Below, one piece after another: positions 15,619-31,852 of a stretch of 43,393 nucleotides of DNA (its first letter is position 1; each line of letters starts with the position of its first letter). The DNA is from a virus. Location: positions 1 through 43,393 of IMG/VR virus record IMGVR_UViG_3300009194_000020; one strand, 5' to 3'. A model generated the notes under the pieces. That model was not told the origin of the DNA. It made no database searches and saw only the letters and a list, made by a program, of their open reading frames with translations. The position numbers were made by a program, and so were the translations under genes.

Positions 15619-18600
15619 ATGATGAAACGATTCAGCGATTACCTTCTCGAGAACTCGCTGTACAGTGACCAGCAAGGATATTCCACTCTAATGAACAACA
15701 AGGGGCAGGTAGCCGAATTGTTCTTCATTAACGTGATGGGGTTCCTATCACTGTACGCCATCGACCGAACTCAGCCGAAACTCGTCTCTTACCTACGAAG
15801 CGAGAAGTCGGTCCGGCCTGATAAGATCGGTGATGCCAATAACGATATGAGCCTGGCCGTTAAGATGGCCGTCGATGCTCAGGTTATCAATCAGGTGGCT
15901 TCAAAAGAGATCACCAAGCTGCTATACCTGATCAAGTCCCGGAAGATTGATACCATCGACGATGATAAGATTCGGGACTTGATGAAGCGAGCGCGTCTTG
16001 GAACTCATATGGATGGACGGATGAAGTCCATCTATCAAGACTACCAGGATGGTAAGACCAGCCTGGCCCAACTCGCTGGTGAAATCTATCCTCGCGCAAA
16101 AGCACGCAAAACGATCAGCTCTGAGTTTCTTGACGTCGCTCAAGCGATGAAGACTGAAATCAAAGCTGCAATGAAAACTGTTGCAACTACGGCAGATGCA
16201 GATAACCCTACCGACGACAATGCGCCAGATCCGGACCTCAAGACGGATGTGCCTAAACCGACATCTGCTGTGATTCCGGACCCTGATCCTGCAATTGCAA
16301 AACGAGCTGCGGCTAAGAAGACGAGTCAACAGGCTGGTGGGACTCCAGCAAAAGACAACCCGTATGATATGTCGCTTCGTGCGAATGTGATCGCAGCGTT
16401 CTTGGATATTGCTCCTCTCGATTCATGGGATGCTGTCAAAGCTGCCCTGAAGGACAAAGGGTTGAGCTCCCATAGGTTCCCCTGGACGATGGTCCTTTCT
16501 GCAGGGGACAAGAAGTTCGATATCACTGCCACTGATGTGCATGCTGCTGTGTTTCGCAATTACAAGCAGCTTCAACAATCAGGAGTATACGATAAGATCC
16601 GTCGAGGGATTAAAGCGTTTGGGTATCAGATCTCCGGCAAGAGCGTGTCCGTTGAAGTCTCGTACCTGCAGGGGTTCTATCAAGCAGTTGAGGCGAACCT
16701 ATTTGATCCAGAACTGCCACCCTACATCAGAGAGATTGCAGACAACGGGATCCCGCGCAATCTGTTTTCGATGAAGTATGTTAGCATGCTGCAGGCAAGT
16801 AGTGCAGGATTCAAAGATAAGGTCAATCTTGTCAACACTCTGCAAGACAACCGCATTCCGGTTCCCACCGTCGCCCTCGATTTCGATTTTGATGCAGTGG
16901 ATCCATCCGAGATCGTTGAGTTTCTGCTGGATGATCAATCAAACATAACAATCGTCGAGAGAATCAGCACACAACTGTATCGTGCAATCATCCAGAAGAA
17001 CCGCACTTCGGTTGCGATCCAGGACATCTACAGCGACATGGATGCTCTGAAGGCTGCTGTTTCGCCGAATCTGTTTGCCATCTATCAAGCGATGGAAGAG
17101 GCTGACGTGTGGGTCAAACTTGGATATCCTGACCGCAGCCTCAAACAAGCTGATGCAATGTCAGACTCCGATCTGGTGGTTGATACTGTACTGTCGCAAG
17201 GACCCGCAAGCAGGGTCAATGATGCCATCCGAACCATGGATAAGGAGCAACGTGCCACCCTCATCAACGCAGTGGCTAAAAGCACCAAAATCAGCAAGTT
17301 TATCGACCTGCTGATTAGTGCCCGCTATCGCGTAAACGCATCCGCTCTACTCGATGTGGTATGCCAAGCTGTAACCATCCAGGGCTTGTCCAACGAAGGG
17401 ATGAAGACGCGTCAAGATTGGACAGATACTGAAATCGCGTTCGTTAAAGCTAACCATATGCCGAACAGCACACAAATAGTTAGTGATTCCGATGCTGTCG
17501 CAGATTACCTCGATAACCTGATGTATACGTCACTGGTTATGCGGATACGGTCCAAAGCGAACGTGTATGCGGATGAGTTCAACAACATTGTGTTTGGTGA
17601 TACTCGCGCGATAATTCCTGACGGTGTACTCAACGATGAAGCATTCAAACCGTTGTCCAAGCCTATCATCGATGCAGCTACCATTCTGACATCTCAGCTT
17701 ATCGCTAGTGGGGCCCTGTTCAACTTCACTCAAACAAAGATGATCATGAGAATCATCTACGAAGCGGATGCGCTACGGGACGTTGAACCGAAAGAGATTG
17801 CTAATCGTGTCGCGATGTCGAACCATCTCGAAATCGGCACGCTGATGAATCTGAAGACGCAACAAGATGAGATGTATGGTGAGCGAGTTGCGCAACTGAT
17901 CGTCGAAAATGCGGATAGCACATTCATCCGTTCGAATGGATTCAAACTTGGCCGTTTCTTTGAACAGCTTATCGATCAACGGGATCCGACCCCAGAGCGG
18001 TTGGAGATGATTCAGAAGTCTGTTGAGAAGCTGCAGCACGCAAGCGGTGATGGAGATAGATTGCTTAACAGTGTTGCTGACTCAGTGGCTCGAATCACTG
18101 CTGTAATGAACAATGACCTTGAGTCTCCGCTGCTTGATACGCCAGCAGCTTGCATAAACACTTACAACACGATCTTGTCGAATGCAGAGGACGGTAGCCC
18201 GATCCGAGATCAAGCGGAACAGCTCCGTCGAATTGCTGCTGAGCAAGCAACGAATACGACCAGCACTGGTGAAAGTCTGGCTCGCACTATTGAGTTCGCT
18301 GCCGCGTACCTGACAGTGGATCAGGTTCAGAATCTTGTTGATCGGATGACAGGTAACGCGAACGTCCTCAAACGAAACTCGTTTGCTATTGGGATGGTGA
18401 AACGTGCCCTTGAAGATTATCCTGAGAAGCTGGCCGTTGTAAGAAAGAATGTTGAAGAAGCAATCCGAACTCTCCCTGGCAGTCTGATCAAAGAAGTATA
18501 CAAGGATGCTCCTGATGCCATCACGGAGACAATCATGATGGCGGATGATCCAGATAGCCTGATGGAGCGGATTAATAGCCCCACGTACCGTCGAGAAATC

Positions 18601-19794
18601 AACCGCGATATCGTTACCACTGCTGTGTTCGATAGTGCGGGCGCTCGGGACATGATCTACGATGGTCCCATTCGGCCGTTGATGGATCTCGACAAGTCTC
18701 GTCTTCTTCAGGTGCTCGAGTACAACGACATCAAAGTCAACATGAAGAAGAACAAGAGGAAGAAGAACGAGTCGTACAAGGAGTATCTCGATCGCGTTGT
18801 TCAGAACACCAACCTCGCTGAGGATATTGGCGAGCTGCTCGTTTCTCGAGTTGACAACACACAGGACCAGCTTGAGCTGAAAACGATCGAGTATGAGAAC
18901 TACAACAGCGGTCGCCACGGCGATACAGCGCTCGAGTTCCTCGAGGAGTTTGATGTGCAGCAATCGCTGACTCAACCTGAGTACTGGGAGTTCCGTGACG
19001 AGCAAACAGACACCGTCATGTACCCGACGTTCCATGGTACTGGATCTGTTGCAGCATCGATGATCCTACGTAAAGGATTTGCGGTGATCAGCGCCAATGA
19101 CGCATCTGCTGTCGGTCGTATGCTTGGTAACGGGATCTATTACAGCAACGTGCTCGACAAGGTTGCTCAGTATATCGGCGATACAGGGTTTGGTCGCAAG
19201 AAAGGGACGGTTGGATACATCTTCGAAATGGAAGCAGTGCCAGGGATCAAAGGAACTCACCACGAATCTGCAGGTCTGGGTGGAGATGGTATTCGCTCAC
19301 CTGAATGGTGTGTGTACAATGCTGGGAAGCAGCTATCGATCCGTAAGGCATACAAGGTTCGGATGGTGTCAACATCTCTGATCCGAAAGCTGCAAGATAA
19401 GCATAGCGATCCAGGAGTCAACGAGGGGAGTTTCAAGCTGAGGGCATTCAGCGATTGGATCCATGCGATTCGCGAGAGTGTTGGAGCCAGCGATGAGACG
19501 GTATCAGGAGCGACTGCAGTACTCGTCTTCCGTGACGGTAAACTGCCCCATCCTACTGATCCGACCCAAGTTATCGATTGGGATGACTTCGATTACGTAT
19601 ACGGCAGCTACACAAACGTCGGTCTTGAATCATCTGCAGCAGGGGTCGCCCTGGTAGTTGACATTCCGGCTGGAATGGATGATGCTGTAGATATTGAAGG
19701 TGTCCATATCGTGACAAACACAAAGGAGTTCAGTGATTCGGAGCTATTCAACAGCATCCGATCCAGCGGACTTCTGACTGGAGGTAACCAATAA
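15619..19794 (+). CDS. Giant PARP-type ADP-ribosyltransferase, probable head-packaged protein
   Basis: The 1391-aa protein has a C-terminal ADP-ribosyltransferase domain of PARP (H-Y-E) type: FHGTG (His1139), GNGIYYSN (Tyr1174/1175) and SPEWCVYN (Glu1229). About 1100 residues of mostly helical sequence precede it. A low-complexity linker with PDPDPAIAKRAAAKK lies near 210-235. The N-terminus MKRFSDYLLENS resembles T4 head-protein targeting peptides (MKTYQEFIAEA), which are cut after the Glu by the prohead protease; ATGs at 15619 and 15622 are both possible. T4 Alt, an injected ADP-ribosyltransferase, is an analogue rather than a clear homologue (682 aa, R-S-E type). The late promoter at 15566 fits a virion protein. 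Target unknown. Confidence 0.8.
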   Translation: MMKRFSDYLLENSLYSDQQGYSTLMNNKGQVAELFFINVMGFLSLYAIDRTQPKLVSYLRSEKSVRPDKIGDANNDMSLAVKMAVDAQVINQVASKEITKLLYLIKSRKIDTIDDDKIRDLMKRARLGTHMDGRMKSIYQDYQDGKTSLAQLAGEIYPRAKARKTISSEFLDVAQAMKTEIKAAMKTVATTADADNPTDDNAPDPDLKTDVPKPTSAVIPDPDPAIAKRAAAKKTSQQAGGTPAKDNPYDMSLRANVIAAFLDIAPLDSWDAVKAALKDKGLSSHRFPWTMVLSAGDKKFDITATDVHAAVFRNYKQLQQSGVYDKIRRGIKAFGYQISGKSVSVEVSYLQGFYQAVEANLFDPELPPYIREIADNGIPRNLFSMKYVSMLQASSAGFKDKVNLVNTLQDNRIPVPTVALDFDFDAVDPSEIVEFLLDDQSNITIVERISTQLYRAIIQKNRTSVAIQDIYSDMDALKAAVSPNLFAIYQAMEEADVWVKLGYPDRSLKQADAMSDSDLVVDTVLSQGPASRVNDAIRTMDKEQRATLINAVAKSTKISKFIDLLISARYRVNASALLDVVCQAVTIQGLSNEGMKTRQDWTDTEIAFVKANHMPNSTQIVSDSDAVADYLDNLMYTSLVMRIRSKANVYADEFNNIVFGDTRAIIPDGVLNDEAFKPLSKPIIDAATILTSQLIASGALFNFTQTKMIMRIIYEADALRDVEPKEIANRVAMSNHLEIGTLMNLKTQQDEMYGERVAQLIVENADSTFIRSNGFKLGRFFEQLIDQRDPTPERLEMIQKSVEKLQHASGDGDRLLNSVADSVARITAVMNNDLESPLLDTPAACINTYNTILSNAEDGSPIRDQAEQLRRIAAEQATNTTSTGESLARTIEFAAAYLTVDQVQNLVDRMTGNANVLKRNSFAIGMVKRALEDYPEKLAVVRKNVEEAIRTLPGSLIKEVYKDAPDAITETIMMADDPDSLMERINSPTYRREINRDIVTTAVFDSAGARDMIYDGPIRPLMDLDKSRLLQVLEYNDIKVNMKKNKRKKNESYKEYLDRVVQNTNLAEDIGELLVSRVDNTQDQLELKTIEYENYNSGRHGDTALEFLEEFDVQQSLTQPEYWEFRDEQTDTVMYPTFHGTGSVAASMILRKGFAVISANDASAVGRMLGNGIYYSNVLDKVAQYIGDTGFGRKKGTVGYIFEMEAVPGIKGTHHESAGLGGDGIRSPEWCVYNAGKQLSIRKAYKVRMVSTSLIRKLQDKHSDPGVNEGSFKLRAFSDWIHAIRESVGASDETVSGATAVLVFRDGKLPHPTDPTQVIDWDDFDYVYGSYTNVGLESSAAGVALVVDIPAGMDDAVDIEGVHIVTNTKEFSDSELFNSIRSSGLLTGGNQ

Positions 19795-23786: not shown

Positions 23787-23804
23787 CCAGTTTCGATAAA
23801 CAAA

Positions 23805-23890
23805 GCCCCATGTCCCCTCATCGGTCTTCTAAACCGATCCTTTAAGCGAGGGATGGAAGGCACGAGGTTCAATTCCTCCATGGGGCTCCA
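23805..23890 (+). tRNA. tRNA-Arg(TCT)-like RNA with aberrant D arm
   Basis: The acceptor GCCCCAT/ATGGGGC, discriminator T and encoded CCA, T arm CGAGG-TTCAATT-CCTCC, and an anticodon-like arm TCGGT-CTTCTAA-ACCGA (TCT) are all present. Only about 9 nt separate the acceptor from the anticodon stem, so there is no normal D arm, and the variable region is about 25 nt. CCCTC (23815-23819) can pair with GAGGG (23848-23852), or CCTT with AAGG within the variable region. It could be a D-armless tRNA or a tRNA-mimicking RNA such as a Y RNA for the Ro-like protein encoded downstream. Confidence 0.6.
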
Positions 23891-23898
23891 TCCATTGT

Positions 23899-23950
23899 GG
23901 GACGTCTACAGCAATACACGCGCATACATCAAATTAGCCATGCACGTCCC
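23899..23950 (+). ncRNA. CAGCAA hairpin RNA, copy 1
   Basis: Outer stem GGGACGT/ACGTCCC; CAGCAA at exactly position 11 (23909-23914); inner stem GCAT/ATGC stacked on the 3' strand; GT follows the stem. Lies 8 nt after the CCA end of the tRNA-Arg-like RNA. One of five copies sharing this plan. Confidence 0.6.
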
Positions 23951-23985
23951 GTCTTTAATACTGCGGTAGGTTGAGAGAGAAAAGA

Positions 23986-24023
23986 AGAACGATCGCAGCA
24001 AACCGTAACCGATACATCGTTCT
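23986..24023 (+). ncRNA. CAGCAA hairpin RNA, copy 2 (short form)
   Basis: Outer stem AGAACGAT/ATCGTTCT; CAGCAA again at position 11 (23996-24001); GT directly after the stem. It lacks a clear inner hairpin. It lies 20 nt upstream of the DUF2828 gene start, so it may be in that gene's leader. Confidence 0.55.
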
Positions 24024-24043
24024 GTGAATAAGGGAGAATGTGA

Positions 24044-25462
24044 ATGACAACACTATCTGAAGCAATAGCGAAGGTTAGCAACAAAACGACAACCGAAAAC
24101 GGGATGGAGATCAAGCGATCCTCCGAATCGAAGCTGGTTGATCTATTCTTTGCTTTTGGGGCATCACGTGGTCAGGACGAACTGATCGTCGAGAAGTTCG
24201 CACAAGCGTTTAACGAAGATCCCGAAGTTGCTGTCCGCATTCTCCTGCATGGTCGCGATGCGCGAGAGGGTATGGGTGAGCGGCAACTGTTCCGATCTGT
24301 GGTTAAGCATCTTGCTGTGCTCGACTACAAACTAGCGGAACGCGTCCTGCCAAAAATTCCTGAGCTTGGCCGTTGGGACGATGTGCTGTGTTTGATCGAC
24401 ACTCCGGTCGGCAAGGACGCTCTCGAGATGATCGAAAAAGCGTTATACGCTGGGGATGGGTTATGTGCCAAATGGATGCCCCGTAAAGCGACGAAGGCTG
24501 ACAACTCGGCTGCTCGAATCCGAAAGCACATGAACCTGACTCCTCGCGCATATCGTAAGCTGTTGGTGCGTCTGTCTGAGACTGTTGAGCAGCAGATGTC
24601 AGCGAAGCAGTTCGATCAGATTGAGTATTCCCGTGTGCCGTCTGTTGCAGCCGCTCGGTACCAAGCAGCATTCGATCGAAACGATCCTGATCGGTATGCT
24701 GAGTATCGCGACTCGCTTGTGAAGGGCGATTCGGACACCAAGATCAACGCAGGTGCAGTGTTTCCGTACGATGTTGTCCGAGCAGCGTTTACGGGGGATG
24801 AAGCTGTTGCGAACGAGCAGTGGAAATCTCTACCGGATTGGATCCCGAACGACAAATCATTCCTGTCGGTTGTTGATGTATCTGGATCGATGACGGCGCA
24901 TCAAGTGTCAGGTGCAGTTGATGCAAGAGAGGTTGCAATTGGTCTCGGCTTGTACGTTGCCGAGCGATGCAAAGCAGAAGCATTCCGCAACAAATTCATC
25001 ACATTCTCGACCAAGCCTGAATTCGTTGATGTATCAGGGCTCGCTCTGAAACCAGCAATACGGCGAGCAGAACGATCAAACTGGGCAATGACGACAAATT
25101 TGGAGGCAACACTCGATCTGATTGTTGACTCTGCGGTTGAGCATAATGTTGACCCCAAAGATATGCCCGAGTGCTTGATCATCTTCAGTGATATGCAGTT
25201 CAACCAGGGTGTTGATAGCCCGAACAAACCGAACGCGATGATCAAACAGAAGTTCAAGAACAACGGGTACAAAGTACCGCAGATTGTCTACTGGAATCTA
25301 GCTAACACTGAACGCAACACGCCAGTGTCGTTCGATAAGAGTGGTGTCGCTCTTGTGTCAGGATTCAGTCCTTCACTAATGAAGAGCGTGCTATCAGCAG
25401 ATCAACTCAACCCGATGGATATCATGTTGTCAGCAGTGATGGATGATCGGTACAATTTCTGA
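24044..25462 (+). CDS. DUF2828 (TROVE/Ro60-like plus vWA) RNA-binding protein
   Basis: The 472-aa protein has an N-terminal helical-repeat region typical of TROVE-type folds: LVDLFFAFGASRGQDELIVE, RILLHGRDAREGMGERQLFR, LPKIPELGRWDDVLCLID. A C-terminal von Willebrand A domain follows, with MIDAS motif DVSGSMT (Asp278), FSTKPEFVD, TNLEATLDLI and IIFSDMQF. Ro60 proteins bind Y RNAs and misfolded RNAs through this architecture; DUF2828 proteins are found in phages and plants with unknown role. It is set in an array of tRNAs and repeated structured RNAs, so an RNA chaperone or scaffold role is plausible. Start follows AAGGGAG. Confidence 0.82.
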   Translation: MTTLSEAIAKVSNKTTTENGMEIKRSSESKLVDLFFAFGASRGQDELIVEKFAQAFNEDPEVAVRILLHGRDAREGMGERQLFRSVVKHLAVLDYKLAERVLPKIPELGRWDDVLCLIDTPVGKDALEMIEKALYAGDGLCAKWMPRKATKADNSAARIRKHMNLTPRAYRKLLVRLSETVEQQMSAKQFDQIEYSRVPSVAAARYQAAFDRNDPDRYAEYRDSLVKGDSDTKINAGAVFPYDVVRAAFTGDEAVANEQWKSLPDWIPNDKSFLSVVDVSGSMTAHQVSGAVDAREVAIGLGLYVAERCKAEAFRNKFITFSTKPEFVDVSGLALKPAIRRAERSNWAMTTNLEATLDLIVDSAVEHNVDPKDMPECLIIFSDMQFNQGVDSPNKPNAMIKQKFKNNGYKVPQIVYWNLANTERNTPVSFDKSGVALVSGFSPSLMKSVLSADQLNPMDIMLSAVMDDRYNF

Positions 25463-25489
25463 CGTTGTCGAAAGAGGGAGTTCAGTACC

Positions 25490-25855
25490 ATGTTGAACCA
25501 AGAGCTCGATGTGATCTATCAACTGCGAGAGCAGCTACAAGACCAACTCGATACAATCAGACGTCAAGGGTGTAATAATGTCGCTGGAATGGTGTTGATT
25601 CGGAGGGTTAAGGACGTGCTCATTGAGCAGCATGACGTCGACCCATCCAAAGCGGCAGTTATCGCCAGCCGGACTTCCATCGAGGTTCCGCCGCTCGATG
25701 ATGACGGCGAAGCGGTCAGCGAGCTGATCAAGCTGACAGACGATTTCGTCAAACTTCTCGTTGAAATGGCGAAGACGCTGATGGAGAGTCAGGAGAATTT
25801 CGAAGATATTCTGTATGAGTTGGCTCCGGCTCTGACGATCAAATTCAGTTACTAA
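25490..25855 (+). CDS. Hypothetical helical protein, 121 aa
   Basis: Follows the Ro-like gene by 27 nt, with AGAGGGAG upstream. The sequence is helical and acidic: LDVIYQLREQLQDQLDTIRR at the N-terminus and KLTDDFVKLLVEMAKTLMES near the C-terminus. It is probably co-transcribed with the DUF2828 gene and might be a partner. Not recognised. Confidence 0.7.
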   Translation: MLNQELDVIYQLREQLQDQLDTIRRQGCNNVAGMVLIRRVKDVLIEQHDVDPSKAAVIASRTSIEVPPLDDDGEAVSELIKLTDDFVKLLVEMAKTLMESQENFEDILYELAPALTIKFSY

Positions 25856-25876
25856 CACACAAAGAGAGCTATTACG

Positions 25877-26128
25877 ATGTCTAACACCAAAGTTCGCAAC
25901 AACGCTCAGCCCCAGAAAGGTCAGACTGTTCTGGTGCGTCATCGCTCGAAGCAGAATAAGGGCGGTCTCGCTTCGATTGAGTCAGTGACCCGTCGAGATG
26001 CTCACGTTACCACGATCACTGGAGTGTATATGGATGGTCGTGTGCGAGTCTCGAGCGGAGACGTGTGGTCAGTGAAGCCGCACAACGGTAAAGAGGACTG
26101 GGTGACAGACGAAGTCGAAATGGGCTGA
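25877..26128 (+). CDS. Hypothetical basic protein, 83 aa
   Basis: Starts after AGAGAG with MSNTKVRNNAQPQKGQTVLV. It has a small beta-barrel-like middle (GQTVLVRHRSKQNKGGLASI, TTITGVYMDGRVRVSSGDVW) that resembles SH3/KOW-type RNA- or DNA-binding barrels, though no family is assigned. Last protein of the Ro-like unit before the tRNA-Cys region. Confidence 0.7.
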   Translation: MSNTKVRNNAQPQKGQTVLVRHRSKQNKGGLASIESVTRRDAHVTTITGVYMDGRVRVSSGDVWSVKPHNGKEDWVTDEVEMG

Positions 26129-26131
26129 AAT

Positions 26132-26196
26132 CGGTCACATAAACAACAGCACTTGCAAACCTGATATGGATTCTCGAAGGTGACGAATCCAGACCG
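26132..26196 (+). ncRNA. Possible structured RNA before tRNA-Cys
   Basis: CGGTC (26132-26136) can pair with GACCG (26192-26196). Inside, a 7-bp hairpin TGGATTC/GAATCCA stacks on the 3' strand, the same plan as the CAGCAA elements. A CAGCA lies at offset 16 instead of 11, so membership in that family is doubtful. Confidence 0.35.
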
Positions 26197-26229
26197 CAGG
26201 GTACGAGGGATAGAGGTTCACCTCAAACT

Positions 26230-26306
26230 CGCCAGGTGGCTGAAATGGTTATGGCGCTGGACTGCAAATCCAGAGAATACGGGTTCGAGTCCCGTCCTGG
26301 CGTCCA
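26230..26306 (+). tRNA. tRNA-Cys (GCA)
   Basis: Acceptor CGCCAGG/CCTGGCG, anticodon arm CTGGA-CTGCAAA-TCCAG, T arm CGGG-TTCGAGT-CCCG, discriminator T, encoded CCA. Standard cloverleaf of 77 nt. Confidence 0.92.
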
Positions 26307-26328
26307 AAAACTTTGAGGAGATAAAAAG

Positions 26329-26508
26329 ATGTTGAGTCCGATTGCAATGGGGGCGATGTTGTGGATTATCGTATTCGTCTTTCTGTTCCTGTCTATTCGG
26401 TGGACTTCACAGGGTCCTGAAGTCTTGATCAAGATGTTCTGGATTGTGATGACTCTATGGGCGTTCGTCAACGCAGCAGGATACAGCAACCTCCATTTTG
26501 TTAGCTAA
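26329..26508 (+). CDS. Small membrane protein, 59 aa
   Basis: Protein gene squeezed between two tRNAs, with a GAGGAG ribosome site 8 nt before its ATG. Two membrane segments: MLWIIVFVFLFLSIRW and LIKMFWIVMTLWAFVNAAGY. Not recognised; perhaps an accessory gene inserted in the tRNA array. Confidence 0.65.
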   Translation: MLSPIAMGAMLWIIVFVFLFLSIRWTSQGPEVLIKMFWIVMTLWAFVNAAGYSNLHFVS

Positions 26509-26520
26509 GGATCAAGCAAG

Positions 26521-26769
26521 ATGACGATGCTTCAACCACCACATCCAGGGCGAGTCATTCAACGTCGGATTCTGCCAGCATTGAACATTACCGCAGTCGA
26601 GTTGGCAGCAACCATGCATACCGTCAATGAAGCAGACCTCGTGCAGGTGTTGGAAGGGTCAGCTCCGATTACCGAAAGCATTGCTTATAATCTGGAGCAG
26701 ATTGAGATCGGTGACGCAGAGCACTGGCTGCGGATGCAGAAGAACTACGATCAGTCACGCAGTAAATGA
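26521..26769 (+). CDS. HigA-like XRE antitoxin-type protein, 82 aa
   Basis: The sequence follows the HigA/VapI antidote pattern: HPGRVIQRRILPALNITAVE (HPGE-type start), then an HTH-like segment VELAATMHTVNEADLVQVLE. The ending is DAEHWLRMQKNYDQSR, equal to the family's typical xxFWLxLQxxYD end. HigA proteins neutralise HigB RNases and repress their own operon. No HigB-type toxin is encoded next to it, so it may counter a host toxin or act only as a repressor (inference). AAGGA precedes the ATG. Confidence 0.75.
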   Translation: MTMLQPPHPGRVIQRRILPALNITAVELAATMHTVNEADLVQVLEGSAPITESIAYNLEQIEIGDAEHWLRMQKNYDQSRSK

Positions 26770-26777
26770 AGGCGTGT

Positions 26778-26854
26778 GCCCGACTGGCCCAATTGGCAGA
26801 GGCAAAAGGTCTAAGCCCTTAGAGTTCTCGGTTCGAATCCGAGGTCGGGTACCA
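26778..26854 (+). tRNA. tRNA with TAA anticodon (Leu-like), C33
   Basis: Acceptor GCCCGAC/GTCGGGT, T arm CTCGG-TTCGAAT-CCGAG, discriminator A, CCA. The best anticodon arm is AAAGG-TCTAAGC-CCTTA, giving TAA with C instead of U at position 33. The D arm looks Leu-like (AATTGGCAGAGGC), but the variable region is only about 5 nt, whereas bacterial tRNA-Leu normally has a long one. Confidence 0.75.
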
Positions 26855-26864
26855 AAATAAATTT

Positions 26865-26950
26865 CAAATCAGCGGTTGACGGTTCGAAATAAACAAGGGA
26901 AGATGCTTCCCATAGTTATTCAAAAAAGTTTGAAAGATATAGCTGATTTG
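26865..26950 (+). ncRNA. Three-way-junction RNA between Leu-like tRNAs
   Basis: A 9-bp closing stem CAAATCAGC/GCTGATTTG encloses two perfect hairpins, GGGAAG-atg-CTTCCC and TTCAAA-aaag-TTTGAA. It lies 10 nt after the preceding tRNA. It could be a stable small RNA or a processing structure; no known family recognised. Confidence 0.45.
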
Positions 26951-26964
26951 AACAACAAGGGTCG

Positions 26965-26993
26965 TAAATACTTCCCACGCTCTTTAAAATCAA
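26965..26993 (+). promoter_or_regulatory. TAAATA box and boxA-like site before tRNA array
   Basis: CGTAAATA (TAAATA at 26965-26970) matches the late-promoter family of this phage. GCTCTTTAAAATCAA (26979-26993) is boxA-like, 14 nt before the next tRNA, repeating the arrangement at 23775. Confidence 0.45.
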
Positions 26994-27007
26994 CAAGTTT
27001 AATCCCG

Positions 27008-27085
27008 GGGTGACTGAAGGGAATTGGCATACCTTCCTGATTTAGAATCAGGAGCTTCTCGGTTCAAGTCCGAGGTCACCCACCA
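27008..27085 (+). tRNA. tRNA-Leu (TAG), short variable region
   Basis: Acceptor GGGTGAC/GTCACCC, anticodon arm CCTGA-TTTAGAA-TCAGG (TAG, reads CUA), T arm CTCGG-TTCAAGT-CCGAG, discriminator A, CCA. The variable region is only 5 nt (AGCTT), unlike the long arm usual for bacterial tRNA-Leu. Confidence 0.85.
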
Positions 27086-27090
27086 ATTTC

Positions 27091-27175
27091 AGCGGGATAT
27101 ACAAGTGGACAAAGTGAGAGGTCTCATAAGCCTCTGGTCATGCCTTCGTCGGTTCGAATCCGACTCCCGCTACCA
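27091..27175 (+). tRNA. tRNA with CAT anticodon (Met/Ile2), long variable region
   Basis: Acceptor AGCGGGA/TCCCGCT, anticodon arm GAGGT-CTCATAA-GCCTC (CAT), T arm GTCGG-TTCGAAT-CCGAC, discriminator A, CCA. The 13-nt variable region can form GGT/GCC, giving a type II-like 85-nt tRNA, which is unexpected for a CAT anticodon. Confidence 0.8.
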
Positions 27176-27179
27176 AATT

Positions 27180-27230
27180 GGGACGACTACAGCAACCCAA
27201 TCTGACATATATGAAATCAGACGTCGTCCC
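27180..27230 (+). ncRNA. CAGCAA hairpin RNA, copy 3
   Basis: Outer stem GGGACGAC/GTCGTCCC; CAGCAA at position 11 (27190-27195); inner stem TCTGA/TCAGA (27201-27221); GT after the stem. Starts 4 nt after the CCA of the preceding tRNA. Confidence 0.65.
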
Positions 27231-27244
27231 GTCAAAAAAGAGAG

Positions 27245-27320
27245 GCATCCTTAGCTCAGCAGGTAGAGCACTGGATTGAAGATCCAGGTGTCCTAGGTTC
27301 GATTCCTAGAGGGTGCACCA
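27245..27320 (+). tRNA. tRNA-Phe (GAA)
   Basis: Acceptor GCATCCT/AGGGTGC, anticodon arm CTGGA-TTGAAGA-TCCAG, T arm CTAGG-TTCGATT-CCTAG, discriminator A, CCA. Standard 76 nt. Confidence 0.95.
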
Positions 27321-27326
27321 TGTTTT

Positions 27327-27383
27327 AGGACGATTGCAGCAAATCAAAATTCAGACTCCTAATCTGACTTTAATTGTCGTCCT
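27327..27383 (+). ncRNA. CAGCAA hairpin RNA, copy 4
   Basis: Outer stem AGGACGA/TCGTCCT; CAGCAA at position 11 (27337-27342); inner stem TCAGA/TCTGA, the swapped version of copy 3 (a compensatory pattern); GTTTCAA after the stem. Starts 6 nt after tRNA-Phe. Confidence 0.65.
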
Positions 27384-27408
27384 GTTTCAAAGTAAACACA
27401 ATAGCAGT

Positions 27409-27484
27409 GCTGGATTAGCTCAGCAGGTAGAGCAGGTGCCTTGTAAGCACTTGGTCGTGGGTTCGATTCCTACATCCAGCACCA
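27409..27484 (+). tRNA. tRNA-Thr (TGT)
   Basis: Acceptor GCTGGAT/ATCCAGC, anticodon loop CTTGTAA on stem GGTGC/GCACT, T arm GTGGG-TTCGATT-CCTAC, discriminator A, CCA. Standard 76 nt. Confidence 0.95.
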
Positions 27485-27496
27485 CAACAGTTTTCA

Positions 27497-27573
27497 CGGA
27501 GCGTAGCTCAGCTTGATAGAGCGCTCGGTTTGGGACCGAGAGGTCGAAGGTTTGAGTCCTTCCGTTCCGACCA
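27497..27573 (+). tRNA. tRNA-Pro (TGG)
   Basis: Acceptor CGGAGCG/CGTTCCG, anticodon arm CTCGG-TTTGGGA-CCGAG, T loop TTTGAGT, discriminator A, CCA. Standard 77 nt. Confidence 0.95.
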
Positions 27574-27577
27574 ATTT

Positions 27578-27629
27578 AGGACAGTTGCAGCAACCCAACA
27601 TATCCATCGATACGGAAAACCGCTGTCCT
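27578..27629 (+). ncRNA. CAGCAA hairpin RNA, copy 5
   Basis: Outer stem AGGACAG/CTGTCCT; CAGCAA at position 11 (27588-27593); small inner stem CGG-aaaa-CCG abutting the 3' strand; GTTTCAA after the stem, as in copy 4. Starts 4 nt after tRNA-Pro. Confidence 0.65.
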
Positions 27630-27642
27630 GTTTCAAGTTAAA

Positions 27643-27717
27643 TGGCGTGTAGCTCAATGGTAGAGCATCCGGCTGTTAACCGGAAGGTTCTCGGTTCGAG
27701 TCCGAGCGTGCCAGCCA
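27643..27717 (+). tRNA. tRNA-Asn (GTT)
   Basis: Acceptor TGGCGTG/CGTGCCA, anticodon arm TCCGG-CTGTTAA-CCGGA, T arm CTCGG-TTCGAGT-CCGAG, discriminator G, CCA. Standard 75 nt. Confidence 0.95.
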
Positions 27718-27736
27718 ATTCCTCAACAGAGAGAGC

Positions 27737-27859
27737 TTGACTATACATTCTTCAGGTGAATATCGTTGCAAGTTATGTGGCGATACATCCTTCACGTATC
27801 TGGACGACGGTAAAGGTCTCTGTTGTGATAGTCGTGGTACTCGATACCACAAGAAGTAG
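27737..27859 (+). CDS. Tiny zinc-finger-like protein, 40 aa
   Basis: TTG-start frame after GAGAGAG, placed between tRNA-Asn and tRNA-Tyr. It contains CKLCGDTS and LCCDSRGTRYHKK, a CxxC...CC/H arrangement like a minimal zinc finger. The TTG start and length make it tentative; codon choice looks like a real gene. Function unknown. Confidence 0.5.
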   Translation: MTIHSSGEYRCKLCGDTSFTYLDDGKGLCCDSRGTRYHKK

Positions 27860-27865
27860 GTTTAC

Positions 27866-27954
27866 GGGGGCACACATTACGACACGTGGCGAGTCTAGCC
27901 GACTGTAAATCGGTGGCGCAAGCTGTGAAGGTTCGACTCCTTCTGTCCCCACCA
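27866..27954 (+). tRNA. tRNA-Tyr (GTA)
   Basis: Acceptor GGGGGCA/TGTCCCC, anticodon loop CTGTAAA, long variable region as expected for Tyr, T arm GAAGG-TTCGACT-CCTTC, discriminator A, CCA. 89 nt. Confidence 0.93.
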
Positions 27955-27962
27955 ATCGTTCT

Positions 27963-28038
27963 GGGTCTATAGCTCAATGGTTAGAGCGTCCCACTCATAA
28001 TGGGTTGGTTTCTGGTTCAAGTCCAGATGGACCCACCA
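27963..28038 (+). tRNA. tRNA-Met (CAT)
   Basis: Acceptor GGGTCTA/TGGACCC, anticodon arm CCCA-CTCATAA-TGGG, T arm CTGG-TTCAAGT-CCAG, discriminator A, CCA. Position 1-72 is paired, so it is not an initiator; it could be Met or lysidine-type Ile. Confidence 0.9.
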
Positions 28039-28050
28039 CCTCCCTTTTGT

Positions 28051-28178
28051 GCCGAACGAACATGGCCTGTGTCAGTGACCATACCACGTGTGTCTGGTAG
28101 CATAGCTTGCTGAAACAGCAGATATAGACTGGCTGCTGGTGGTAGACATAGCTCGGTTCGATTCCGAGGTTCGGCCCC
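28051..28178 (+). ncRNA. Oversized tRNA-like RNA (about 125 nt)
   Basis: GCCGAAC (28051-28057) pairs with GTTCGGC (28169-28175), next to a perfect T arm CTCGG-TTCGATT-CCGAG. No normal D or anticodon arm is seen. The 90-nt interior instead has TACCA/TGGTA and TGCTG-aaa-CAGCA hairpins. CCA is not encoded (CCCT follows). Possible identities: tRNA with an insertion, Y-RNA-like tRNA mimic, or decayed tRNA. Confidence 0.5.
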
Positions 28179-28183
28179 TTAGA

Positions 28184-28259
28184 TGCGCCTTAACTCAGTT
28201 GGTAGAGTGTCCGACCGATAATCGGATGGTCCTCGGTTCGAGTCCGAGAGGCGCAACCA
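28184..28259 (+). tRNA. tRNA-Ile (GAT), C33
   Basis: Acceptor TGCGCCT/AGGCGCA, anticodon arm TCCGA-CCGATAA-TCGGA, T arm CTCGG-TTCGAGT-CCGAG, discriminator A, CCA. The loop has C instead of the near-universal U at position 33. Confidence 0.9.
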
Positions 28260-28273
28260 ACATCAGAGGGTTC

Positions 28274-28450
28274 ATGCTTATCTGCATCTGCAAAGCAGTC
28301 AACGATCACGCAATCGGCGCTGCAATCCAAGCTGAATCCTCTTCCCTCCAAGATGCGCAGACAGCAACCGGTGCTTGTACGCATCGTCGAAAAATTCAGA
28401 TAGCTGTTGATTCGAAGCGAGAGCAGAGAGATGATATCCTCACTGGTTGA
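28274..28450 (+). CDS. Bfd-like (2Fe-2S)-domain protein, 58 aa
   Basis: The N-terminus MLICICKAVNDHAIGAAIQA, then LQDAQTATGACTHRRK, follows the bacterioferritin-associated ferredoxin pattern (CxC, ten-residue helix, TGAG.CGKC). Bfd proteins bind a 2Fe-2S cluster. Here the second Cys pair is reduced to one Cys (GACTHRRK), so cluster binding is doubtful. The tail is polar. GAGGG precedes ATG 28274. The protein may have kept the fold for another role. Confidence 0.6.
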   Translation: MLICICKAVNDHAIGAAIQAESSSLQDAQTATGACTHRRKIQIAVDSKREQRDDILTG

Positions 28451-30195: not shown

Positions 30196-31575
30196 TTACG
30201 CCGCTGTTGGGACTCGGATCACATAGTTGCCGTGATCAACATACTCATCACGAGTAGCTGCCCACGTACTATTACTTCCCCCGAAGAAGATTGTTGACAT
30301 GATCCCATTAATCATCACTGCAGTTGAATCGCGATAGATGATTCCATCGAGCTCAAACACAGGAACGTCATCGATCCATACCCGAGCGACCCCATTATCG
30401 TATCCGACGTCGTTGAGAATCACCTCCTGAGTGACTTTTGTCCAACGTCCTGACACGAAGTAGAATGCCCCTCGACCGATGCTGTCCCCGTACTGATTCG
30501 ACTTGTTCATCGCATACAAGTACAGCTCGCCCTGACCATCCTTACGCCACATCATACGAGTCGAAAATCCATTGGCAGTGGATGCACCACCAGACGGGGA
30601 GTCACCACCATACAGACCTGGCAGCTTGCCACCTTTGACCCATTCATATCCAGGCTTGAACCGAACGTAGTAGGTCAACGTCGCACGATTCTCGGAGATT
30701 ACAATATTCTCCCAGCCTGTACCACGAATCATGCTCGTCGTGCTGGTATATGAGTCCTTCTCCATATGAGTTCGGAAGAACCGTTGAAGAAAAGGAGCTT
30801 CTGTTTGGGGGCGGATTTCTGTCGCGTCGAGATCCCACACCCCATCGGCTGTCAGATCGACCCCAAAGTCGCGCTCAAGGACGGTTGGAACATCTGTTCC
30901 TGCAGGCTGACCTTCCCAGCCGATCGCAAACGATCGGTTCTTTGGTGGTGGCAGATAGAAGTACGTCGCGGGCGGAAGAGTGTGAGTTGAGATGTCAGCG
31001 CTCGCGACAGCGACACCAGCCCCAGCTCCCTCTGCAGTGTATGTCAAATCAAGATCAGTGGCAACAATTTCACCGATGATGATTGATTCGCCCTGAGCTC
31101 CATTGCCCCACCCAAGAATACGAATGCTCGGAGTTCCGGAGTAAGCAGGAGCAGTGAATGCGACTTCCAATGTCTGCCAACCCGCTCCAACTGTCACAGG
31201 AACATCTGATCCTGCAATCTGACCCGTATCATCATAATACGCGATCTGGAAGGCATCTGAATACCCTTCAGTGGTATCCGGGTTGACTTCAACCGTGATT
31301 TTATGAGAGTGCCCTTCGATGAGAGGTTCAGGCAGATCAATCCACTGATGGTGATTGTCTACCCCATCAAGAGTAATCTTCGTGGCTTGTGGACGGCCAA
31401 GCCTATCCGCTACACCATACGTTTTGGTTACATTGCTAGAAGACTCCTGCCACTCAGAGTCTGCAGTGATGTGCGGATAGACTAGGACGTTTGGAGCAGC
31501 GTACACGGCAGCAGGAGGGACACGAGGTCCCAGCTTGATCTGACCGGCACGAGATGAGTGTCCAAGGCCTAGCAT
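30196..31575 (-). CDS. Tail protein with polysaccharide-lyase-like (PL14-type) domain
   Basis: The 459-aa protein has an N-terminal part with GLGHSSRAGQIKLGPRVPPA. A jelly-roll, carbohydrate-binding-like module follows (about 50-190: NHHQWIDLPEPLIEGHSHKI ... GWGNGAQGESIIIGEI). The C-terminal domain resembles PL14-type lyases: LTYYVRFKPGYEWVKGGKLP, then GLYGG, FSTRMMWRKDGQGELYLY, and GVARVWIDDVPVFELDG. Such proteins cleave uronate polysaccharides such as alginate. ATG 31575 is chosen because the upstream gene ends at 31577. A depolymerase tail spike is likely; catalytic residues cannot be confirmed. Confidence 0.65.
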   Translation of the reverse strand: MLGLGHSSRAGQIKLGPRVPPAAVYAAPNVLVYPHITADSEWQESSSNVTKTYGVADRLGRPQATKITLDGVDNHHQWIDLPEPLIEGHSHKITVEVNPDTTEGYSDAFQIAYYDDTGQIAGSDVPVTVGAGWQTLEVAFTAPAYSGTPSIRILGWGNGAQGESIIIGEIVATDLDLTYTAEGAGAGVAVASADISTHTLPPATYFYLPPPKNRSFAIGWEGQPAGTDVPTVLERDFGVDLTADGVWDLDATEIRPQTEAPFLQRFFRTHMEKDSYTSTTSMIRGTGWENIVISENRATLTYYVRFKPGYEWVKGGKLPGLYGGDSPSGGASTANGFSTRMMWRKDGQGELYLYAMNKSNQYGDSIGRGAFYFVSGRWTKVTQEVILNDVGYDNGVARVWIDDVPVFELDGIIYRDSTAVMINGIMSTIFFGGSNSTWAATRDEYVDHGNYVIRVPTAA

Positions 31576-31576
31576 A

Positions 31577-31852
31577 TTACCACACCCCGATGAAATCAGT
31601 GGCAGTCGTGTTAGTGGCAAGAACTTGACGGACACGAACCGGTAGAACGGAACCGGATGGAACGTTCTTGAACGTGAGAGGATCGTTTGTTACAGCATCG
31701 ACTGGAATGACAACAACGTCACCACCGGTACCGACATACAGAGCGACTCCGGCCGTCAGAGGGGTGCTGTCGCTCGGCGTAACAGCAGATGCATTGCCTG
31801 GATATTGAGTGATCGTGCTCCCGAATTCGGAGCGAGTTGAACTATACGGCAT
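31577..31852 (-). CDS. Small virion structural protein, 91 aa
   Basis: The protein is beta-rich with small residues, and its second half is GVALYVGTGGDVVVIPVDAV ... GSVLPVRVRQVLATNTTATD. This closely resembles a short family common beside tail-fibre or neck genes in phages (spike-like trimers with LPVRVxxVxATxTTATxI endings). It overlaps nothing and is translated just before the lyase-like tail protein. A minus-strand TAAATA late box lies upstream. Confidence 0.7.
   Translation of the reverse strand: MPYSSTRSEFGSTITQYPGNASAVTPSDSTPLTAGVALYVGTGGDVVVIPVDAVTNDPLTFKNVPSGSVLPVRVRQVLATNTTATDFIGVW

Follow-up and report, generated by a model that had tools for sequence, protein, structure and literature searches.

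The window, that is, the whole stretch of DNA analysed here, is a virus record of 43,393 bases from IMG/VR (IMGVR_UViG_3300009194_000020), to which all coordinates refer. Its gene content is T4-like, with genes for a late sigma factor, an SbcC-like subunit, a sliding clamp, a clamp loader and two RNA ligases. It harbours five short elements with a common CAGCAA core, two of which (copies 1 and 2) precede the gene at 24044-25462, and three of which (copies 3, 4 and 5) lie within a tRNA array. In the following, we will focus on these elements, which probably represent small noncoding Y RNAs of a Ro protein encoded by the phage itself. The features concerned are listed below, with E-values referring to a covariance model of the element that is described later.

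23899-23950, + strand: Y-RNA-like element copy 1, 52 nucleotides (nt); stem GGGACGT/ACGTCCC; upstream of the Ro-like gene; model E-value 0.0091
23986-24023, + strand: Y-RNA-like element copy 2, minimal, 38 nt; stem AGAACGAT/ATCGTTCT; in the leader of the Ro-like gene; model E-value 0.069
24044-25462, + strand: gene for a protein with a predicted Ro60 fold (predicted model), presumed RNA binder; Pfam DUF2828 and DUF7788
27091-27175, + strand: tRNA-Met, ending 4 bases before copy 3
27180-27230, + strand: Y-RNA-like element copy 3, 51 nt; stem GGGACGAC/GTCGTCCC; inner hairpin TCTGA/TCAGA; model E-value 5.7e-5
27245-27320, + strand: tRNA-Phe, ending 6 bases before copy 4
27327-27383, + strand: Y-RNA-like element copy 4, 57 nt; stem AGGACGA/TCGTCCT; anticodon-arm-shaped insert; model E-value 1.7e-6
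27497-27573, + strand: tRNA-Pro, ending 4 bases before copy 5
27578-27629, + strand: Y-RNA-like element copy 5, 52 nt; stem AGGACAG/CTGTCCT; model E-value 5.2e-7

The five elements had been pointed out in a sequence-only reading of the window, and their positions and common layout can be read directly in the DNA: each copy has its own paired outer stem of 7-8 bp, CAGCAA from base 11, and GT immediately past the 3' strand. The outer stem is present in the lowest-energy folds (in copy 5, with six of the seven pairs), with z-scores of -1.9 to -3.2. The inner hairpin, described in that reading as usual, is solid in copies 3 and 4, between which the TCTGA/TCAGA swap is real, and is not solid in copies 1, 2 and 5. 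The insert of copy 4, TCAGA-CTCCTAA-TCTGA, corresponds to the anticodon arm of an Arg CCU tRNA. Copy 2 ends 21 nt before the ATG of the Ro-like gene. The core alone is insufficient as evidence, since GCAGCAA is present 15 times and ACAGCAA 13 times in the window, against about 6.5 expected for each. A sixth site with its own complement followed by G, at 15660-15756 inside the open reading frame 15619-19794, was taken as chance because the covariance model does not return it at E-values up to 10; it was kept within the sets of 124 and 222 elements considered below. A DNA search of phages with the whole region returned no record spanning 80% of it, the best listed matches being to the Ro-like gene.

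Relatives were sought in 90 sequences, namely the best 80 of 101 IMG/VR loci encoding relatives of the 24044-25462 protein, nine regions of named phages, and the window. These sequences contain 1,195 CAGCAA sites, 144 of which are followed, within about 120 bases, by a strand complementary to the seven bases at their own start. In 135 of the 144 the complement is followed by G, and all 135 lie on the strand of the DUF2828 gene; they correspond to 124 distinct elements with 80 distinct stems, some loci repeating each other. Swapping the stems between sites (200 shuffles) left a mean of 10.9 complements (maximum 20), and of 2.07 (maximum 6) when the G was included. The spacing is fixed as well: in the window and loci L001-L080, a stem starting 10 bases before the core gave 98 matches followed by G, against 2-10 at offsets of 8, 9, 11, 12 and 13. 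Up to eight or nine elements were found per phage.

The partner strand can also be predicted from the 5' side. The 5' pattern of a single stem, TTTAGGATGCNNNCAGCAA, occurs in at least 120 IMG/VR stretches, and the same pattern with the letters of the core reversed in one. Among the matches listed (120 loci), 127 of 132 have GCATCCT within 140 bases, followed by G in 126 cases, against a mean of 1.4 (maximum 18) for shuffled 7-mers put in its place; one of the five matches without partner strand (L130) reads as a longer permuted tRNA. In addition, 40 short elements, all taken from phages other than that of the window, served to build a covariance model of the handle (41 candidates, with L208 left out; one row, L071 17684, looks like chance and was retained). 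In an unfiltered search of both strands of the window, this model ranks the five elements first to fifth, and the sixth match has an E-value of 1.8. In 31 of the 34 loci for which no element had been listed earlier, some of them because identical copies had been dropped, the model gave eight matches in seven loci at E<=0.01 and matches in 13 loci at E<=1, several of them directly before or after the protein gene.

The five elements are thus members of a small-RNA family that is widespread among phages. Covariation beyond the copies of the window was found in other phages, and the proposal that selection acts on RNA structure is strongly supported by the stem-swap test, the covariance model made from other phages and the 5'-only pattern. 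What is kept is a basal stem joining the 5' and 3' ends, as in Y RNAs in the broad sense. In animal Y RNAs, the Ro-binding part is a stem formed by both ends, and the likeness concerns this end-to-end stem.

With regard to the protein, two Pfam families, DUF2828 and DUF7788, match the product of 24044-25462, as does PHROG 850 ('RNA-binding protein'); Pfam TROVE (PF05731) is absent among the matches. An AlphaFold2 model built from 30 sequences reached a pLDDT of 83 and a pTM of 0.81. When this model was compared with the PDB by Foldseek, the 12 best matches were all Ro60, Rsr or TROVE proteins (E-values of 3e-10 to 4e-6, 11-15% identity), including the Ro60 of Thermus phage phiLo, and the next was an unrelated vWA domain (4e-3). 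Alignment with VIA-align gave Z-scores of 19.4 (9kop), 17.3 (1yvr) and 14.3 (Deinococcus Rsr, 2nvo), against 10.2 for vWA domains. The claim is carried by this fold comparison since the DUF2828 sequence profile is weak against the PDB, reaching TROVE only at an E-value of 0.0067 and Ro60 at 0.78. The protein is therefore predicted to have the Ro60 fold, the likeness to Ro60, Rsr and TROVE proteins extending over the helical ring and the vWA domain across the full length of the model, whereas identity in the fold alignments is only about 11-18%. As a literature term, DUF2828 returned plant papers only, judging by title. In the records of L142 (G020) and L105 (G445), the DUF2828 match is split into pieces about 0.9 kb apart, as if an insertion interrupted the gene.

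The elements and the DUF2828 gene occur together. When records of at least 40 kb were picked by the RNA pattern alone and not by the protein, 44 of 55 among the matches listed encoded DUF2828 (27 of 34, 1 of 2 and 16 of 19 in the three subsets; in the subset of two, L105 does and L124 does not). The 55 exclude L123 and L137, which come from the record of the protein-picked L033 and are positive, L129, which shares the record of L126, and L112, a match without partner strand in a record without DUF2828. Among the last 40 loci, the shorter records carried the gene in 12 of 20 cases, and records of all lengths in 28 of 39, again among the matches listed. The base rate of DUF2828 is 681 in 50,697 phage records. 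In the reverse direction, 16 of 18 DUF2828 records have a model match at E<=0.01 over the whole record; L082, L087, L088 and L089 had supplied rows of the model, and the other records of this test had not. T4 and T5, both without DUF2828, gave no model match.

The position relative to the gene is also informative. Of the 124 elements, 28 end within 100 nt before the first aligned residue of the DUF2828 gene, whose interior contains none. Among the five shortest, four, including copy 2 of the window, sit 14-21 nt before the gene, and minimal copies occupy the same place in the leader in L001, L005, L020 and L083; L080 5886, also among the five shortest, may be chance. The association extends to bacterial assemblies, where the CAGCAA handle stands beside DUF2828 at 47 of 744 sites, 45 of them on the strand of the gene, against 0 to 5 for control cores. 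Many of the assemblies with DUF2828 and the handle (L211-L290) are titled Clostridia or Lachnospiraceae. L249, L273 and L288 are examples of bacterial assemblies with DUF2828 and elements, and some such assemblies have permuted tRNA-like inserts. Like Y RNAs in the broad sense, the elements are thus encoded near a Ro60-like protein.

What lies between CAGCAA and the 3' strand is variable, yet non-random. Redundancy reduction left 222 elements, of which 126 measure 45-75 nt, 91 are longer and five are shorter; a few chance sites remain among them. A hairpin of at least four pairs around a 7-nt loop is present in 77 of the 126 short elements (dinucleotide shuffles: mean 26, maximum 37). In 50 of the 126, copy 4 of the window included, the loop has T at position 2 and A at position 6, corresponding to U33 and A37 of an anticodon loop, against a mean of 4.7 and a maximum of 9 in shuffles and a single case of the mirror-image motif. 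The 50 loops read as Lys UUU (7), Thr UGU (6), Ser UGA (4) and 20 other anticodons, and a tRNA gene of the same locus shares the anticodon in 24 of the 48 cases in which the locus has tRNA genes. In 44 of these 50 loops, the base that precedes A37 (position 36) is U or A. Transfer RNAs with U or A at this position before A37 carry t6A or i6A, and the anticodon-like arms might be substrates of the corresponding modification enzymes.

In the 91 long elements, a rough motif search found a T arm followed by a D arm in 31, a T-arm motif alone in 29, the linear order in one, a D arm alone in one, and neither arm in 29; some of those with the T arm alone are linear bodies by eye (L072 9674, L128 12125). 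With T before D, the order is that of a tRNA circularly permuted in such a way that its two ends come together in the anticodon loop. An unconstrained fold of the phiM19 element (L083 5335-5456; z-score -2.6) contains the outer stem, an anticodon stem, a T arm, an acceptor hairpin and a D arm, and its acceptor strand reads as ending in CCA. The corresponding z-scores are -3.2 for L022 5147 and -4.1 for the linear L048 9598. A subgroup of long elements (L030 1666, L041 9363, L047 454, L075 6830, L093 3015 and L111 3563) has in common a T-arm-like hairpin around GAGTTTCGA and, later, a AAAAAGTAG stretch, and may represent a distinct Y-RNA-like subtype.

The statement that the elements match no known RNA family holds for the window and less so for its relatives. 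At gathering score, Rfam returned tRNAs only from the window (ten matches to RF00005), none on the five elements, and at E-values up to 10 nothing in 23880-28300 overlaps them; the weak YrlA matches of that region (22.6 and 18.7 bits) fall on tRNA genes. The Rfam YrlA model (RF02553), which matches none of the five, does match two permuted long relatives below its gathering score of 69, namely the element of mycobacteriophage JoeDirt over the full model (39.8 bits, E-value 1.2e-7) and that of L080 (43.5 bits, E-value 2.4e-6). For comparison, TROVE was found in eight of 398 genomes drawn from one phylum. YrlA was detected at E<=0.01 in six of the eight TROVE loci, twice above gathering score (L295), and of the eight YrlA alignments beside TROVE most show the YrlA handle, composed of CGAAUGC, a second stem and UUGUCG. 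A scan of the TROVE loci L291-L300 for CAGCAA gave three weak sites, none of them convincing (two with five pairs and one with a T-run stem).

The phage RNAs therefore appear to have the effector side in common with cellular YrlA and to differ in handle and Ro subfamily, since the YrlA found next to TROVE shows another handle. As with YrlA and Rsr, they are encoded beside a Ro60-fold protein, have a basal stem formed by paired ends and occur as tandem copies, and the long members share the permuted order of T and D arms. Unlike YrlA, the phage handle is a single stem of 7-8 bp with NNNCAGCAA and G instead of the CGAAUGC...UUGUCG module, many members measure 45-75 nt and hold an anticodon arm or no tRNA part, and the protein partner is a DUF2828/DUF7788 protein without the Pfam TROVE call. 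The layout of the long elements is that given for YrlA, in which the basal stem goes to Ro and the tRNA-like domain to PNPase (PMC8394870). Ro-like proteins and YrlA are mentioned as carried by some phages in passages of PMC7765460 (citing a 2018 review), TROVE proteins of some jumbo phages in a passage of PMC7824862, and a Ro60-like protein of mycobacteriophages in one of PMC12363180. As phage Ro-like proteins and YrlA are already in print, the family does not constitute a new RNA class.

Other identities were considered and discarded. Stable RNAs C and D of T4 are likewise small RNAs within a phage tRNA cluster, but the T4 stretch read contains no CAGCAA, and T4, which lacks DUF2828, has no model match any more than T5 has. 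Intrinsic terminators do not fit, as the stems are followed by GTCTTTAA, GTGAATAA, GTCAAAAA, GTTTCAAA and GTTTCAAG without a T run, nor does a mobile repeat, since the stems differ among copies and retain their pairing. With regard to earlier work on Y RNAs, Chen et al. in 2014 reportedly identified probable Y RNAs in the vicinity of Ro60 in over 250 species of bacteria and phages, and part of the CAGCAA-handle family may already be listed there. The same authors are said to have taken as a criterion that each genome has at least one Y RNA with a tRNA-like domain. Such a domain is present in many relatives, and none was seen in the 43-kb record of the window, which is possibly a fragment.

In our view, the phage has a Ro protein of its own (DUF2828/DUF7788, 24044-25462), and the five elements are the small noncoding Y RNAs that belong to it, with a probability of roughly 80%. 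Of the three ideas proposed in the sequence-only reading, the strongest support (gene linkage, the Ro60 fold and the YrlA-like relatives) goes to a ligand for the Ro-like protein; binding itself we infer. The elements would be transcribed as RNAs with two parts. The constant handle, made of a 7-8-bp stem whose sequence is free, then three bases and CAGCAA, and a G (usually GU) past the 3' strand, would be the part bound by the Ro-like ring, and the RNA would be protected thereby. The variable insert, which in relatives is an anticodon arm, a YrlA-like permuted tRNA body or, more rarely, a linear one, would act as effector module and may present itself as tRNA-like to a partner that binds tRNA, for example PNPase or tRNA-acting enzymes. 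Finally, where minimal copies stand directly before the ribosome site of the Ro gene, binding of the Ro protein could repress further Ro synthesis.

Several observations weigh against this interpretation. Eleven of the 55 RNA-picked records show no DUF2828, fragments being a possible reason, and TROVE, sought in seven of these eleven, was not found. Two of the 18 DUF2828 records have no match to the short model, namely the record of L045 and phiM19, the latter with elements that are either long or minimal. A tRNA body is present in none of the five window copies, and a clean anticodon arm in copy 4 only. The permuted elements of L089 (z-score -1.6) and L007 (-1.8), two of the four long elements (permuted or linear) given an unconstrained fold, fold only mildly better than shuffles, and those of L022 and L079 are unmatched by Rfam YrlA. 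The handle is unlike that of cellular YrlA, and the link to Y RNAs therefore rests on the Ro fold, the linkage and the tRNA mimicry.

The same mimicry lends itself to another explanation, compatible with Y RNAs and not exclusive of them, in which the inserts are baits that occupy tRNA-cutting defence enzymes of the host and the Ro-like protein merely stabilises them. The 50 anticodon-like loops speak for it, as do the two RNA ligases of the window phage and, for YrlA, the competitive inhibition of an anticodon nuclease named as a possibility in PMC7790460, in which YrlA is also described as not being a substrate of that nuclease. Since the signature is missing in 76 of the 126 short elements and in four of the five window copies, only half of the arms (24 of 48) match the anticodon of a tRNA gene of the locus, and no defence enzyme is tied to any element, we regard baits as rather improbable. 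A combined version is similarly tentative, and decoy activity as such is speculative. In this version, the Y RNAs on the Ro ring would display either permuted tRNA bodies or an exchangeable set of anticodon arms (Lys UUU, Thr UGU, Ser, Arg, Asn and others); as tethered baits, these would occupy or divert anticodon nucleases of the host and further defence enzymes that attack tRNA, and the bait-free copy in the Ro leader would serve as feedback sensor. The anticodon arms make nuclease inhibition worth testing in phages and do not show it.

Less probable still is that the elements are only cis-acting operators, by which the Ro-like protein would bind the handle in the mRNA or operon and control its own gene and the neighbours, with no free small RNA. 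The copies close before the gene, including the shortest ones at 14-21 nt, fit this, but the remaining copies are found between tRNAs, downstream of the gene or several kilobases off, and tRNA-like inserts would be superfluous for a plain operator. A role as hairpins for the processing or protection of tRNA 3' trailers, put forward in the sequence-only reading together with the statement that four of the elements start 4-8 nt after a tRNA CCA end, is very unlikely. The statement holds for copies 3-5; copy 2 follows no tRNA, and the predecessor of copy 1 is not called by ARAGORN, so that four of the five copies follow a tRNA or tRNA-like sequence. Adjacency is enriched, since 28 of the 124 elements begin within 15 nt past the end of a tRNA, as do 9 of 1,892 random positions, but it is not general among relatives: the other 96 do not begin within that distance, elements occur in nine of 34 tRNA-free loci (e.g., JoeDirt), and T4 and T5 are rich in tRNAs and lack elements. 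As many relatives are not near tRNAs and often occupy the leader of the Ro-like gene instead, the trailer role fails as a general one. Slightly less credit still is given to natural permuted or split tRNA genes, whose handle would be a splicing element closing the permuted tRNA into a working one. The T-before-D order in 31 of the 91 long elements and the phiM19 fold, with permuted arms and encoded CCA, are in line with this, but the same handle also holds lone anticodon arms, linear bodies or nothing, and the acceptor stem is nearly missing in some permuted bodies (L007, L008).

The interest of Y RNAs of a phage Ro protein lies in the fact that the purpose of bacterial Y RNAs is still largely open, and here Y-RNA-like elements stand beside a protein with a predicted Ro60 fold. 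The family is represented in the cultured phages Felix O1, Listeria AG20, Aeromonas LAh_8, Campylobacter CP8 and mycobacteriophage JoeDirt, which makes binding, partners and loss of function accessible to experiment. To judge from the swappable inserts, what the RNAs display to the cell may be tRNA surfaces, among them anticodon loops, which are attacked by known anti-phage nucleases. The covariance model of the handle would let annotators locate such RNAs in phage genomes in which no Rfam family marks them.

Some further features of the region were noticed. The sequence before copy 1 (23804-23890), which ARAGORN does not call, is tRNA-like, with an acceptor stem GCCCCAT/ATGGGGC, a TCT anticodon arm, a T-loop motif and CCA, and no clear D arm; it is possibly a decayed or unusual tRNA. 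Between tRNA-Leu genes, at 26865-26950, a 9-bp stem (CAAATCAGC/GCTGATTTG) encloses two further hairpins without CAGCAA, and the fold of 26869-26953 has a z-score of -1.75. Inside the tRNA array, 26521-26769 encodes a small helix-turn-helix protein whose matching PHROG is annotated as plasmid antitoxin. On the minus strand, 30196-31635 encodes a polysaccharide lyase family 14 domain, its neighbours lying on the opposite strand.

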